Source: a virus
Virus record (IMG/VR): IMGVR_UViG_3300020021_000050
Location: 1 to 22,553 of that record
Strand: one strand, 5' to 3'
DNA: 22,553 nucleotides
Below are positions 10,484 through 21,734 of the stretch, piece after piece (position 1 is the first letter of the stretch; every line of letters starts with the position of its first letter). The position numbers and the translations under genes were made by a program. The notes below the pieces were generated by a model. That model worked only from the letters and a program-made list of their open reading frames with translations, was not told the origin of the DNA and did no database searches.

Positions 10484-11247
10484 CACGCATCCGACGTCGC
10501 GTAAGTCAGCACCGTTCCCGCTGCGTTCGCGAAGGCGTCGAACTCAAACGAGGGAATCGCAAAGTCATCCAGCTTCGTCGAGAGCCCGAGCTTCGTGCTG
10601 ATGCAATTGGGCAAGCTGATGGTCAGAATCTTGCCCGAGTACGGCATCACGAGGTCAGCCTGGAAGGTTGGCGCGTAGCCCATCGGCAGATTTGCCACGT
10701 TACCTACGCGCGCGGTCGTTGAGGTCGCCGCATAGTTGTAGCTTATATACATGCGCAAGCCCACATCCGCCGCCGCGAACGTATAAGAGCCCGCTGCCTC
10801 CATGTACTGCCCTGTGGCGGGCGCGCTGACGACCCGCACCAGCGGCACGCCCGTAGGCCCCATCACGCCTAGATCGTAGCCATAGGTGCCAGAGCTGGGC
10901 GGCACGACCAGAATCAGGAACGTCGTAATCGGAACCGGCGTGCCGGTCGTGTCGATCAAATCGGCGTTGATGCCCGCCGTGAGTGCTTGCCCGAATAGCA
11001 GCGAGCCCCATAGCAAGCCGTTGATCTGCGCCATTGCTGCCTTGCCGGTGACCTTGCCCTTGCCGCGCCCGATGGCGAGGGGGAACTGGCTGCTGCCGTA
11101 GAGCATTTTTGTGTCAAACGAAATGTCCACCGCTACGTCTTGCAGCGCGCCGAATCTGACCGGCGTTGCAAGCGCTATGGGGTTGCCGAAGGCGTCTTGC
11201 GTGGGCGTGCCGACGAGGCTGCCCGAACCAAATACATACTGGGTCAT
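10483..11247 (-). CDS. Major tail tube protein, 254 aa
   Basis: Expected to polymerise into the tail tube. The identification rests on position (after the terminator-like gene, before the G/GT chaperones) and a beta-rich composition typical of lambda gpV-like tube proteins. Visible parts: MTQYVFGSGSLVGTPTQDAF with VRFGALQDVAVDISFDTKML near the N-terminus, GRGKGKVTGKAAMAQINGLL around residues 61-80, and YAPTFQADLVMPYSG to FAIPSFEFDAFANAAG at the end. ATG at 11247 has a clear AGGAG eight bases upstream, one of the best ribosome sites in the window and fitting for an abundant product. At 254 residues it is near the usual size. A small beta insertion around residues 120-180 (PPSSGTYGYDLGVMGPTG) may form a surface loop. 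Confidence 0.8.
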   Translation of the reverse strand: MTQYVFGSGSLVGTPTQDAFGNPIALATPVRFGALQDVAVDISFDTKMLYGSSQFPLAIGRGKGKVTGKAAMAQINGLLWGSLLFGQALTAGINADLIDTTGTPVPITTFLILVVPPSSGTYGYDLGVMGPTGVPLVRVVSAPATGQYMEAAGSYTFAAADVGLRMYISYNYAATSTTARVGNVANLPMGYAPTFQADLVMPYSGKILTISLPNCISTKLGLSTKLDDFAIPSFEFDAFANAAGTVLTYATSDA

Positions 11248-17040: not shown

Positions 17041-19026
17041 CTACCAGTTGTTAGTGAAGTTCGGTCGGCGCTGCGGGCGCATCACTTGCACCATCCGCGC
17101 AGGTTTCGGCAGCATCGGCGGCGGTGCTTCAATGGGCGATTCAATCGGCGCCGCTGGCGGCGCCGTGTCGCTCGCTGGCGCTGACGCGGCGTCCTTGGTC
17201 AAGCGGGCGCGCGCCTTTGCCCAATCCCCAGCACGGAAGCGCGGCAGCCCTAGCTGATGCGCCGCCGCCAGCGCATACACGGCACAGTCGAGCGCTTCGT
17301 TGCGGCGACCATTCGGCAACAGCCACTCTTGCGTAGCGAAGCCCTTGACGTATTTCGTCACAAGCCGCTCGGCGGTCAATTGGTCGTAGAAATCCTCGGT
17401 CAGCGCGCTCGATGTATGAACGTAGCCGGGACCGGGAAGCGCGATGTTGATGCGCGCATAGATCACTTTTTTCGCCGCCGTCGATCCGACCGGCCAGAGC
17501 TTCACGCCGCCTGTGACTAATCTGCCGCCTTTGGAAATGTCGCGAAGCTTCGGCTTGCCCATGATGGGTTTGTCGGCGTAGCGCTGGCCTTGAATCGCTA
17601 AGATTTGCTGCAAGCCATACGGCGTGCGGCGCATCGCATTCAATCGGCAAAAGGTATAGACCTCTTGCGTGTGCATGCCGCCCGAATCAATGCAGACGGT
17701 GCGCGGCACAACCTGCGCGCCCAGCTCGTGGTCAATCGGGCGCTCCAAAGATTCTAAAAGCTGGCCCCACACGACTTCGCGCGCCGGATCGCCGTCCAAT
17801 CGGTCGCGCGCGACGATCCACGATTCCTGGCCCTCGCCGTAGGCCCAGTAATAAACCTCTAAGCGATCCCCCTGCACATCGACGCCAGCGGTCAGCATCA
17901 GGCCGCCCGAGGGCACGAAGTTCAAAGGGTAATTTTCCGCGCGCTGCATCAGCACGCCCGGCTCGACTTCATCCTTTGAGCTTTCCCAGACCTCGCCTAA
18001 GCAGGTATTGACCCAGGTTTGCAATCGCGTCGGATTATCTTTTGCCGCGAGGAATTCTTTCGCGATACGCGCCAGGCTCGACCACGGCGAGTACAGCTCG
18101 CTAATGTGGAATCCCGCGACGCCTCTGAATGGCACCGAAGCGCGCCACTCGCCCGTCGCAACCCCTTCGACCTTTTGGCCCTCGCTCCACTCCGCCGCGC
18201 AGTGCGGGCAGAAATAGCTCGCGCGCTCCGGTTCATTCGGCGGCCACTTCACGTTCGCCCATTTGAGCGTTTGCATTTCCGTGCAGTGCGGACAGGGCAC
18301 ATAAAAATAACGCTGATCGGATTCGGCGAAGGCCGCCTCGATGCGGCTCGCGCCTTTCACCGTTGGCGTCGATACCTTGACGCGCTTGCGGTTCCAAAAA
18401 TTGTTGGTGCGCTTCTCCGCCAACGATATCGGGTCGCCTTCCGTGCCCGCGCTGATCGGATACTTATCAATCTCATCCGCCAGCAGTACGCGGATCGGGC
18501 GCGACGCCAAGCTTGCCGGCGAATTGGCACCGGCTAGCGTTAGCTGCCCGCCTTGGAATTGCTTGTGCAGAACCGTGTTGCCCGAATCGCGCGAGGTCGC
18601 GCGCGCAACCTTTTCGCTTAAGCTCGGGCTATCGCGCAGCATTGGCGCGATACGATCTTTAGAGAACGCCTCCGCCATTTCGACGGTCGGCTGCAAAAAT
18701 AGAATCGGGCACGGGTCGTAGTCGATGAAGTAGCCGGAAATATTATTTAAGATTTCCGACTTGCCGACTTGCGCCGACGTCATAAACACGACGTCCTGCA
18801 CCATCGGATCGTTCACGACGTCCATCATTTCGCGCTGATACTCAGCGCGCGCCGTGCGCCATTGGCCCGGCTCGGGTGATGCCTCGCTAGATAGCTGGCG
18901 TCTCGCGTCCGCCCATTGGCTCACCGTGTACGTCGGCGGCGGCGCTAGCACCTTCCTCATCGTCAGCCACAAGGTCTTGAACGCCCTCGTATCCGCCGCC
19001 AGAGAGTTCGATAAGGGCTTGGTCAA
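17041..19026 (-). CDS. terL: Terminase large subunit, lambda GpA family (661 aa)
   Basis: Packaging motor and nuclease. N-terminus has PTYTVSQWADARRQLSSEAS, typical of GpA. Walker A is TSAQVGKS (83-90, a non-classical form usual for GpA) and Walker B is RVLLADEID (179-187, Asp184/Glu185). Two CPHC pairs (Cys245/248 and Cys273/276) form a probable zinc ribbon. The nuclease domain shows Asp383 in GVDVQGD, Asp447 in CIDSGG and Asp580 in NEALDCAVYA. The end (about 610-661) is proline-rich. The start shown is TTG 19026, which keeps the helix FKTLWLTMRKVL before the conserved region. ATG at 18960 is the alternative (639 aa). Either start overlaps the small subunit gene, by 140 or 74 bases. GpA enzymes usually make cohesive ends, which is inference here. 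Confidence 0.93.
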   Translation of the reverse strand: MTKPLSNSLAADTRAFKTLWLTMRKVLAPPPTYTVSQWADARRQLSSEASPEPGQWRTARAEYQREMMDVVNDPMVQDVVFMTSAQVGKSEILNNISGYFIDYDPCPILFLQPTVEMAEAFSKDRIAPMLRDSPSLSEKVARATSRDSGNTVLHKQFQGGQLTLAGANSPASLASRPIRVLLADEIDKYPISAGTEGDPISLAEKRTNNFWNRKRVKVSTPTVKGASRIEAAFAESDQRYFYVPCPHCTEMQTLKWANVKWPPNEPERASYFCPHCAAEWSEGQKVEGVATGEWRASVPFRGVAGFHISELYSPWSSLARIAKEFLAAKDNPTRLQTWVNTCLGEVWESSKDEVEPGVLMQRAENYPLNFVPSGGLMLTAGVDVQGDRLEVYYWAYGEGQESWIVARDRLDGDPAREVVWGQLLESLERPIDHELGAQVVPRTVCIDSGGMHTQEVYTFCRLNAMRRTPYGLQQILAIQGQRYADKPIMGKPKLRDISKGGRLVTGGVKLWPVGSTAAKKVIYARINIALPGPGYVHTSSALTEDFYDQLTAERLVTKYVKGFATQEWLLPNGRRNEALDCAVYALAAAHQLGLPRFRAGDWAKARARLTKDAASAPASDTAPPAAPIESPIEAPPPMLPKPARMVQVMRPQRRPNFTNNW

Positions 19027-19456
19027 TGGCGATCTTTAATCGGTCCACGATGTACGCGGGGTCCGATTTATTCGTAAGTTGTGGCCCCTCCGTTGAGGGG
19101 ATTGCGCGCAAGCGCTGGCGACAATTCGCGAGCATCTTTGTGACGCCATCGCGCACGGCTTCTAGCTCTAGTAGCTCGCCGCGTCGCACTCGATTTTCGG
19201 TCTGGACCTTTTCCGCCTGCGCAGCGACCAGCTTTAATTTTTCCGCCGTCATGCTGGCGCCGTCCGCCGTGCCCGCTGGACCGCGCCGCTTTAGTTCCGC
19301 TTGTAGGTGGCGGATATACCAAAGGGTAATTTTATTTAGGTCGTACTCATTGCGACCTATCTTCTCGGGGAAACCGGACTCCCTTGCAAGCTGGCCGACG
19401 CGCTGCACGCTGACATTCAGCACGCGCGAGACGGTGCCTACATCGACGGGTGTCAT
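18887..19456 (-). CDS. terS: Terminase small subunit, Nu1-like (189 aa)
   Basis: DNA-recognition subunit that brings the large terminase to the packaging site. Residues 1-60 are a winged-helix-like region (VGTVSRVLNVSVQRVGQLAR, then ESGFPEKIGRNEYDLNKI), a pattern shared with lambda Nu1: a helix-turn-helix followed by a G-x-x-x-YDL strand. Residues about 70-150 form a long helical oligomerisation part (LVAAQAEKVQTENRVRRGEL, CRQRLRAIPSTEG, IVDRLKIAIDQALIELSG). The C-terminal tail is acidic (ADDEEGA). ATG at 19456 overlaps the upstream stop as ATGA. A TTG five codons earlier (19471) is less likely. The last 140 bases overlap the large subunit gene in another frame. Confidence 0.85.
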   Translation of the reverse strand: MTPVDVGTVSRVLNVSVQRVGQLARESGFPEKIGRNEYDLNKITLWYIRHLQAELKRRGPAGTADGASMTAEKLKLVAAQAEKVQTENRVRRGELLELEAVRDGVTKMLANCRQRLRAIPSTEGPQLTNKSDPAYIVDRLKIAIDQALIELSGGGYEGVQDLVADDEEGASAAADVHGEPMGGRETPAI

Positions 19457-20145
19457 CCTGATACATTCCAAAACAGCGCGCCCTTCGGTGCTTGGCGCTC
19501 GAATACTTCCCAGCCCTTGGCGTCGTAGTTACGGGCGCTGGGGAATGGCGCCTCACCTTTCGCGTCGGATTCAAAGGGCGCCGGGTAAATTATCTGTCGC
19601 GCCCTGCCGGTATCGCTGTCCTTTTTGCCGACGATCACGGCGACGAAGTTCGCCTGCGGCCACGCGCGCTGTAGCGAGCGCGTCAGGACGCCGCTGCCGG
19701 TCACGCTCCAGACTTCCGACGGGGCTACTTGCAGCGAGCGCGCCGCCGCCGCTATGGATTCAATCGAGCGCGGGTCTTCGACGCCGAACGGGATCAGATA
19801 CGCCCCGACCTTCGCGGCGTAGTCGCGCGCGCGGGCCTTGACGACGTTCAAATAGCCGTGCGGAACCATGACGACCTTTGCCCCTGCCGCCTTGGCTGCC
19901 AACGTCAGCGGGTGCGGCGTGCTGCGCTTCGCTGTGAATACGGTGGCCCTGCGGCCTGCGGCCATGGCGCAAAGCGCTAAGGCGACCTGTGCGTAGCCCT
20001 GCGCCGGGCTCGCGTAGACAAATTCTTGAGCGTCGCTGCTGTCAATCAACGGCATGATCGCGCGCATCTTGGTGCCGCCGCGCAATAGATCATCACGCAC
20101 CACCAATCTGCCTCCATGCTCGCGCACAATTGGCGCGGCCAGCAT
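19453..20145 (-). CDS. PLP-dependent fold-type II-like enzyme, phage form (230 aa)
   Basis: Resembles fold-type II pyridoxal-phosphate enzymes such as D-cysteine desulfhydrase, ACC deaminase and threonine synthase. Seen: VVRDDLLRGGTKMRAI at 15-30, like the xREDL-x-GGNKxR segment of those enzymes, with Lys26 as the candidate PLP lysine; YASPAQGYAQVALALCAMAA (44-63); AAKAAGAKVVMVPHGYLN (83-100); LIPFGVEDP (117-125); and a glycine loop VTGSGVLTR (148-156) in the phosphate-binding position. It ends YDAKGWEVF and GALFWNVSG. At 230 residues it is shorter than the usual 300-400, so part of the substrate domain is missing. ATG 20145 shares a base with the methyltransferase stop (TAATG), and its own stop overlaps the terminase start. 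Substrate unknown. A phosphoribosyltransferase-like fold is an alternative, though I favour the PLP match. Confidence 0.6.
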   Translation of the reverse strand: MLAAPIVREHGGRLVVRDDLLRGGTKMRAIMPLIDSSDAQEFVYASPAQGYAQVALALCAMAAGRRATVFTAKRSTPHPLTLAAKAAGAKVVMVPHGYLNVVKARARDYAAKVGAYLIPFGVEDPRSIESIAAAARSLQVAPSEVWSVTGSGVLTRSLQRAWPQANFVAVIVGKKDSDTGRARQIIYPAPFESDAKGEAPFPSARNYDAKGWEVFERQAPKGALFWNVSG

Positions 20146-21734
20146 TACAGAATCTCACCATACTGCGCCGCTGGATCAGCGCTCGCGTCGGTCGCTGGTG
20201 GCGCTTCGTCGCTGGCTTCCTCGGGCACCGCGACGTCGACTTCGCCGCATGCAGCGGTCGCTACCTTCGGGTCGCCCTTGATAAATACCAAAACATTTTG
20301 GTGCGTCTTGCCCAGCTTGCGCGATACGCTGAATTGTCGGCCTACTCTGATCGGTAGCGAACCTATGGCGGTCAGCAAGATCGCCTCGTTGTACAGCTTC
20401 AAGCCCGCGTCAATGAATGCCTGGACCGTATCGCCGACGAAATTGTAGTAAGCGCCGTCGTTGCCGCGTACCTCGCCGACCACGAAGCACGCGAAGCGGT
20501 CGGGCTTCAACATCCGGCACGATGCCGCAATGATGTCGCGGTAGGCCGCGCGAAATTCTGGATAGGCCAGCGTTGATAAATCTTTTGGATCGTCGCTGTA
20601 GACTTCTAGGTCCGCGTAGGGCGGGCAGCTAAAGAGGAAGTCAGCCTCGACGCCGAAGCACAGCGTCTCGATGTGGCGGCTGTCGCCGCAATTCCAAACG
20701 GGCGCCAGCGGATCGTTCGCGCAGACCGTGGTGGCCTGCGCGCGGTTCGCTAGCACTTGATGCTCGCTCAGCTCATTGCCGATGTACTGACGGCCCAGCT
20801 TGGCGGCGACGATGCCGCGAACGCTGCCGCCCGCGAAAGGGTCAAGGATGGTGCCGCCCTTCGGCGTGAACCAGCGGTAGGCAATCTCGCAAAGTACGGG
20901 GTCGAAGATTGACGTCCCGCCCTGCCATTGCGAATTTGCGCCGCTACCCTGTCCGGGAATTGCGCGGTGCTGTGCTTGCCGCTGCGACGCATCGCCGAAC
21001 GCCTTGGCGTAGCGGTACGGGTCCGTCGTTGTGCGGTGGGTCAGCCCGCCGCGCAGGTCTTCCGTCTCATCCGCCTCCCGCTTCGCGCGGGCGGTATAGC
21101 CCCCGGTGTTGCAGACTTCGGAGAAGCCCAGCGTATTCTCGCCGCGCCCCAATTCGCTGCGAATACCTAGCGCGATCCAGTCGCGTTTGCGATCTTGCCA
21201 CCAGCCCTCGCGCGCATTGAAGACGCTAAACGGCGGAATCAGAAAGCGCTCAGCCAGCGAGCCGTTGCCCGGCGCCGTCTGTTCGCCCTCGCCTTCCGCG
21301 CCCGGTCGCATGTCGCCTAGCAATCCGGCGAGTTCGCTTTCCTCGAAGCCTACGTTGATGAGGTCGAAACCACCCAGCGCTAAGTCTTTCAGCTCGGTCG
21401 CCAGCATGCCGAAGTCCCAGCCCGCGTTCATTGCCAGCTTATTGTCAGCGATGACATAGGCGTGCTTCTGGGCGTCGGTCCAATGGCGCGCGACGATCAC
21501 GGGTACATCGGCAAGCCCTAATTTCAGCGCCGCCTGTAGTCGTCCATGGCCTGCCAGAATGGTGTCATGTTCGTCAATTAGAATCGGGATCGTAAAGCCC
21601 CACTCGCGGATCGACGCCGCGAGCTGCGCGACTTGTTCCGGCGAATGCGTGCGGGAATTTCGCGCGTAGCCGATCAGCGTAGCCAGCGCCCTGCGCTCCG
21701 TCGTAAAAGGCGGCGGCGAAAGCTCGGCGCTCAT
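20145..21734 (-). CDS. ParB-domain / DNA methyltransferase fusion protein (529 aa)
   Basis: Residues about 15-110 are a ParB/Sulfiredoxin-type N-terminal domain (YARNSRTHSPEQVAQLAASI, then TILAGHGRLQAALKLG and YVIADNKLAMNAGWD). Residues about 165-485 are an adenine/cytosine-N4 type DNA methyltransferase: the SAM motif ILDPFAGGSVRG (296-306) and the catalytic FSCPPYADLEVYS (368-380), with Cys rather than D, N or S before PPY, and a closing KTHQNVLVFIKG. Motif I comes before motif IV, unlike beta-class enzymes that carry DPF-type motifs. The middle (RKRDWIALGIRSELGRGEN) may be target recognition. The tail after 490 is acidic and alanine-rich. Enzymes of this layout are common near phage terminases. 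They can protect DNA from host restriction, but the target sequence cannot be read here. Confidence 0.85.
   Translation of the reverse strand: MSAELSPPPFTTERRALATLIGYARNSRTHSPEQVAQLAASIREWGFTIPILIDEHDTILAGHGRLQAALKLGLADVPVIVARHWTDAQKHAYVIADNKLAMNAGWDFGMLATELKDLALGGFDLINVGFEESELAGLLGDMRPGAEGEGEQTAPGNGSLAERFLIPPFSVFNAREGWWQDRKRDWIALGIRSELGRGENTLGFSEVCNTGGYTARAKREADETEDLRGGLTHRTTTDPYRYAKAFGDASQRQAQHRAIPGQGSGANSQWQGGTSIFDPVLCEIAYRWFTPKGGTILDPFAGGSVRGIVAAKLGRQYIGNELSEHQVLANRAQATTVCANDPLAPVWNCGDSRHIETLCFGVEADFLFSCPPYADLEVYSDDPKDLSTLAYPEFRAAYRDIIAASCRMLKPDRFACFVVGEVRGNDGAYYNFVGDTVQAFIDAGLKLYNEAILLTAIGSLPIRVGRQFSVSRKLGKTHQNVLVFIKGDPKVATAACGEVDVAVPEEASDEAPPATDASADPAAQYGEIL

Follow-up and report, generated by a model that had tools for sequence, protein, structure and literature searches.

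The window, i.e. the whole stretch of 22,553 nucleotides that was analysed (positions 1 to 22,553 of the IMG/VR virus record IMGVR_UViG_3300020021_000050), carries a ParB-methyltransferase gene (MTase) overlapping a gene for a 230-aa compact fold-type II PLP enzyme (PALP). These two enzymes may form a phage DNA hypermodification module, in which the MTase would attach a SAM-derived group and PALP would act on its amino-acid part, a reading that we put somewhat short of an even chance. The evidence consists of the PLP fold and its conserved residues, the overlap of the genes in one operon, their near-obligate co-occurrence, their repeated fusion, and a sister clade of MTases in which an AdoMet decarboxylase (SpeD) takes the place of PALP. 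From these observations we infer that the transferred group is larger than methyl, as well as the order of the steps and the product.

Organization of the locus

The following features, all on the minus strand, are relevant here:

17041..19026 (-): terminase large subunit (TerL), GpA type, conserved neighbour (PF05876 and PF20454)
18887..19456 (-): terminase small subunit (TerS), conserved neighbour (phrog_57, 8.6e-26)
19453..20145 (-): PALP, 230-aa compact fold-type II PLP enzyme (PF00291, phrog_7093, AF2 model and structure comparison)
19516..19527 (-): Y207-D208-A-K210 of PALP, predicted catalytic Tyr and acid beside PLP N1
19678..19701 (-): TGSGVLTR (aa 149-156) of PALP, predicted PLP phosphate-binding loop
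20068..20070 (-): K26 (in GGTK) of PALP, predicted Schiff-base Lys
20145..21734 (-): MTase, 529 aa, ParB_N plus amino-type DNA methyltransferase-like transferase (Pfam above cut-off, phrog_498 6.3e-130, AF2 model)
20616..20630 (-): catalytic motif IV SCPPY (aa 369-373) of the MTase (motif and alignment)
20814..20843 (-): SAM-binding motif I DPFAGGSVRG (aa 298-307) of the MTase (alignment)
21141..21257 (-): conserved linker region 'IPPFSV.NAREGWWQDRKRDWIALGIRSELGRG' (aa 160-198) of the MTase (comparison with relatives)
21294..21710 (-): ParB-like N-terminal domain (aa 9-147) of the MTase (Z 15.6, rmsd 2.0 over 131 residues to the CTP-binding ParB 7bnr)

The coordinates, strand and overlaps of the MTase, PALP and TerS genes given in a preliminary description of this DNA were all correct. 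The MTase and PALP genes meet in TAATG, the last base of the stop codon TAA (20147-20145) being the first base of the PALP start codon (20145-20143), while the PALP stop codon overlaps the TerS start codon in ATGA (19456-19453). The adjoining terminase genes were also correctly named. The remaining genes of the window are siphovirus-type structural genes. Among the tail genes, a 254-aa protein (10486-11247, minus strand) strongly matches phrog_8234 (1.6e-82), a family of unknown function.

The earlier assignment of a ParB-methyltransferase fusion with SAM and PPY motifs was confirmed. Both domains score above their Pfam cut-offs (ParB_N, 27.9 bits against 26.3; N6_N4_Mtase, PF01555, 37 bits against 26.7), and motifs I and IV are both present. 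The AF2 model of the MTase reached a pLDDT of 78.9 overall, with values mostly above 90 in the MTase and ParB domains and disorder around residues 200-275. The modelled catalytic domain is nearest to the tRNA N2-guanine MTases TrmN (3tma; Z 17.8, rmsd 2.2, 180 residues aligned) and Trm11, which likewise modify an exocyclic amine. The ParB-like domain (21294-21710, minus strand) resembles CTP-binding ParB/Noc proteins, with a Z of about 15.5.

Fold and active site of PALP

A sequence-only search of the PDB with PALP yielded no convincing match, and fold comparison was therefore used. The AF2 model, with 68 relatives in the alignment, has a pLDDT of 96.2 and a pTM of 0.91. Two solved structures share the top Z of 23.9, namely D-cysteine desulfhydrase (4d9f; rmsd 2.2, 228 residues aligned) and the ACC deaminase homologue 1j0a (rmsd 2.1, 230 aligned), followed at slightly lower scores by ACC deaminase 1tzk (Z 23.4) and CysM 2bhs (Z 22.4). 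By its predicted structure PALP is thus a fold-type II PLP enzyme in compact form, of the kind represented by ACC deaminase and D-cysteine desulfhydrase, a relationship that the preliminary description had supposed. PALP matches phrog_7093 (8.5e-36) and PF00291 (E 9.5e-7), the latter with 28.9 bits and hence under the gathering cut-off of 35 bits, whereas its relatives L271 (39.2 bits), L146 (54.4 bits) and Vincenzo gp2 (40.6 bits) are above it. A comparison of PALP with the PADLOC defence families gave no match.

Alignment of PALP with E. coli D-cysteine desulfhydrase (DcyD) used the longer related proteins from Vincenzo, Pam4 and L146 as intermediates. The lysine singled out earlier, and part of the glycine loop, proved invariant in the 68 relatives: K26 aligns with DcyD K51, and the loop, in which S151, G152, L154 and R156 do not vary, aligns with GSAGTHAGL of DcyD. 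Y207, D208 and K210 are invariant in the same 68 sequences, and Y207 aligns with DcyD Y287. In ACC deaminases an acid directly follows the catalytic Tyr, comparable to D208 after Y207 in PALP. In DcyD, K51 forms the Schiff base and Y287 takes the C-alpha proton, and the T315L/T288E mutant of this enzyme was designed on the basis of a comparison with ACC deaminases (PMC3344862). The invariant residues argue for PALP being a working PLP enzyme, as predicted from these alignments. The Ser78-type residue that binds the substrate carboxylate is absent from PALP, where an invariant Gly (G50, 68 relatives) takes its position, which makes D-cysteine or ACC an unlikely substrate.

Association of PALP with the methyltransferase

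The preliminary description mentioned similar neighbours in other phages, and a neighbourhood check found the pair widely, in some cases fused. Of the three outcomes named there as refuting the idea, a fold unlike PLP enzymes and a lack of co-occurrence were checked, and neither was observed. Among 50,697 phage records searched at the sensitivity of tblastn, only 3 contained PALP, but it was found in at least 578 IMG/VR stretches, these loci having been picked by similarity to the queries and many contigs being fragments, so that the counts are not frequencies. The MTase is present in 88 of the 92 PALP loci from phages and IMG/VR. Two of the other four start at a contig edge, one (L009) shows less than 2 kb upstream, and in the fourth (L018) the MTase is found on the same contig at a distance of about 10 kb (L138). 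In bacterial genomes, a first scan with the window PALP as query returned no loci; with a prophage relative as query 29 PALP loci were found, mostly in Rhodobacterales and Hyphomicrobiales, of which 23 have the MTase and the remaining ones are partial matches. No PALP relative was found in plasmids. The pairing is beyond chance, as it is seen again and again in IMG/VR (hundreds of contigs) and also in prophages of bacteria.

Among the dereplicated MTase loci, 65 of 76 PALPs are located within 300 nt of the MTase domain, either downstream or upstream, and 74 of 76 are on the MTase strand. Several contigs have the MTase as two ORFs, ParB-linker and catalytic, with PALP between these halves. Three fusion arrangements were identified: (i) PALP inserted between MTase motifs I and IV, in Erythrobacter phages R6L (gp1) and ZS04 and in contig L271 (its close relative L272 has no such insert); (ii) a different, second-type PALP at the same insertion site, in Pam4 gp70; and (iii) a C-terminal PALP fusion, in L146. 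Annotations of the named relatives go no further than DNA methylase, carboxylate deaminase or PLP enzyme, and no functional description of the pair was found in the open-access literature, in line with the earlier suggestion that the module is undescribed.

Some further loci are worth recording. In R6L the fused MTase-PALP gene is preceded, at a distance of about 1.4 kb, by a PAPS-reductase-like gene (gp7; L002, 4374-5417), and likewise in ZS04. Two large T4-like phage contigs carry PALP distant from the terminase genes (L009, 1723-2475; L059, 3959-4717), and in the latter a more distant MTase (FTSPPYFDREQYS) is found two genes upstream of PALP. In the bacterial genome contigs L296, L302 and L304 PALP is present as two adjacent reading-frame pieces, showing that there are broken copies or sequencing errors.

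Many close relatives of the MTase have no PALP and stand directly next to the terminase genes. On the MTase tree, built with FastTree and containing many weak branches, the presence of PALP changes at least nine times on supported branches and 18 times in the best tree, while motif I remains unchanged, and no alignment column tracked PALP presence with support. The earlier proposal that DNA is marked or protected before packaging was not favoured, as the terminase neighbourhood is common to MTases without PALP and the MTase is in one contig fused to a putative DNA polymerase. In this fusion (L013, 8902-12183) a single 1094-aa ORF comprises the MTase and a putative family-A DNA polymerase region, recognized by eye (ADAAQIEFRL, YGARSIKLAV), which suggests that modification may be coupled to synthesis.

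A sister clade paired with AdoMet decarboxylase

The MTase search also identified Croceibacter phage P2559S (L173, 3368-5009) and Pseudomonas phage ZRG1 (L176, 3347-5192), in which a SpeD gene overlaps the MTase gene. In IMG/VR (L177-L254, genes overlapping or abutting), SpeD directly downstream of the MTase is the rule in this sister clade. The SpeD proteins pass Pfam AdoMet_dc, and their pyruvoyl-serine motif is intact in 42 of 42 (one by eye). SpeD of P2559S is a proven AdoMet decarboxylase that restores spermidine synthesis in E. coli delta-speD, and the methyltransferase goes unmentioned in the text of that paper (PMC9992855). SpeD and PALP occurred together in no record tested.

The partners are associated with different forms of motif I, which reads FAGD[ST]xFG in SpeD-paired MTases and FAGGSVRG in PALP-paired and most unpaired ones. 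After dereplication at 95%, GD[ST]xF was present in 42 of 42 SpeD-paired MTases compared to 2 of 129 without SpeD. The acid-site residue, Asp in all 42, is Gly in the PALP-paired relatives; in the window MTase G303 occupies this site and R306 that of the Phe. Within the SpeD clade, twelve rows have no SpeD in their records, which may be fragments. Seven of these have lost the Asp (L179, L211, L227, L253, L239, L244 and L256), two keep the motif (L181 and L196), and a sub-clade of three (L246, L252 and L255) keeps the Asp with Lys replacing Phe (FAGDTQKG or FAGDTYKG), possibly reflecting a further cofactor or chemistry. An independent-pairs test of SpeD against motif I on supported branches, where changes are too few, gave two to three agreeing pairs and none opposing (p 0.25); the link is drawn from the contingency table and the losses within the clade, not from independent counts.

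Decarboxylated SAM (dcAdoMet) is bound in polyamine aminopropyltransferases by the acid of the motif hhhhGGG(D/E)G(G/A) (PMC11107197). The Asp of the SpeD clade matches the motif-I position of this acid (GGGDGA in E. coli SpeE), as placed by motif and not by structure. The SpeD-paired MTases are therefore candidate DNA aminopropyltransferases.

Proposed mechanism and alternative explanations

We propose that the ParB-MTase would transfer a SAM-derived group onto an exocyclic base amine, and that PALP would cooperate in processing the amino-acid portion of this group. Since PLP chemistry requires the amine of an amino acid and a methylated base offers none, the transferred group would be expected to contain the amino-acid chain of SAM. 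In the preferred route the 3-amino-3-carboxypropyl (acp) chain of SAM would be transferred first, followed by PLP chemistry at C-alpha on the DNA, e.g. decarboxylation to aminopropyl, or deamination. Fold-type II enzymes mostly eliminate, deaminate or racemise their substrates, and decarboxylation is unusual among them. Taken alone, this specific route is rather doubtful. A plausible benefit would be that the phage DNA is masked from host restriction.

PALP might instead act before the transfer, turning SAM, or an amino acid derived from methionine, into a modified cofactor for the MTase, as SpeD does by making decarboxylated SAM. SpeD holds the same operon position in the sister clade, and in some phages PALP is inserted beside the SAM-binding motif. 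A changed cofactor should nevertheless leave a mark on the MTase pocket, as seen with the SpeD partners, whereas GGSVRG is found with and without PALP. As PALP is gained and lost with no change in motif I and no tracking column, it probably does not supply a changed cofactor, and we regard action before transfer as unlikely; action on the MTase product appears the more likely alternative. The same uniformity of the MTase, in which no residue separates PALP-paired from unpaired proteins, would also allow for plain methylation plus an unrelated PLP step. In another view the enzyme encoded beside the terminase genes carries out ordinary methylation and PALP is a metabolic passenger in loose linkage, which would agree with the many close relatives that have the terminase genes directly next to the MTase and no PALP. 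Such loose linkage fits poorly with the three fusion arrangements, the insertion between split MTase halves or the strong co-occurrence despite changed gene order, making it distinctly improbable.

Two further explanations concern PALP itself. By consuming SAM or a related amino acid it could starve SAM-dependent host defences while the MTase methylates separately. Lower SAM levels could result from SpeD as well as from a PLP enzyme, and the phage SAM lyases known to act against BREX (PMC12783734) provide a precedent. Starvation would, however, harm the adjoining MTase, and an independent anti-defence gene would be expected to occur alone, while PALP is fused into the MTase and is rarely found without it, so that we give this explanation little credence. 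It is highly improbable that PALP is a non-catalytic, regulatory subunit of the MTase with a PLP-fold scaffold: its length of only 230 aa, against about 330 in characterised relatives, and the loss of the S78-type carboxylate residue would suit such a role, but K26, Y207, D208 and the phosphate loop show no variation among the 68 sequences, as expected of a working PLP site.

Implications

Modifying their DNA is one of the main ways in which phages counter restriction, and phage "methyltransferases" are for the most part taken to transfer methyl. In the present case a single MTase family swaps between two partners with amino-acid chemistry, SpeD or a PLP enzyme. In the clade paired with SpeD a residue of the SAM pocket changes with the partner. 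This swap suggests that phages attach whole SAM-derived side chains to DNA, beyond methyl. It is conceivable, though with the balance against it, that this family of phage "DNA methyltransferases" does not methylate and attaches longer SAM-derived chains, i.e. aminopropyl from dcAdoMet in the SpeD clade and a PLP-reworked amino-acid chain in the clade of the window. If true, this would imply new modified DNA bases, possibly with positively charged aminopropyl or acp-derived groups, a role in DNA for phage SpeD, which has so far been read as polyamine metabolism, and new tools for placing amine handles on DNA. Each type is represented among cultured phages (PALP in Erythrobacter phage R6L and Microcystis phage Mae-JY30, the second PALP type in Mycobacterium phage Vincenzo, SpeD in P2559S, and no partner in phiFL3A and B054), making direct testing possible.

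Comparison with known systems

The closest precedent for the module is the CmoA-CmoX-CmoY 5-carboxymethylcytosine system, in which carboxy-SAM serves as the substrate of a phage MTase homologue and the base is then hypermodified by a third enzyme; the search in that study yielded no CmoA-associated carboxymethyltransferase candidates of the N6 or N4 type (PMC12783734). What the two systems have in common is a phage DNA-MTase homologue that is paired with another enzyme, frequently in the vicinity of ParBc domains. The transfer of a group beyond methyl is proven for CmoA-CmoX-CmoY (PMC12783734) and proposed for the window MTase. CmoX is a cytosine-C5 enzyme with SPPC, whereas the window encodes an amino-MTase with SCPPY and an N6_N4 Pfam match, and its family has a PLP enzyme, or SpeD in the sister clade, as partner, unlike the Cmo system.

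Enterococcus phiFL3A gp36 and Listeria B054 gp77 share the ParB, linker and MTase architecture at 38-51% identity, and in phiFL3A the gene is near the terminase genes, as in the window; unlike the window MTase, neither has a PALP or SpeD partner. Spermidine/spermine aminopropyltransferases have their motif-I dcAdoMet acid in common only with the SpeD-paired sister clade. With Gly (G303) at the acid site and Arg three residues on, the window MTase is not predicted to use dcAdoMet.

With the D-cysteine desulfhydrase/ACC deaminase family PALP shares the whole fold (Z 23.9, rmsd 2.1-2.2 over 228-230 residues), the Schiff-base Lys, the catalytic Tyr and the glycine loop, and with ACC deaminases also the acid after the Tyr. 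It is about 100 residues shorter, at about 15% identity, and the Gln-Ser-Asn-His substrate loop of that family is replaced by Gly-x-Ala-Gln. Unlike the members of that family, PALP accompanies a DNA MTase, in phages as well as in prophages.
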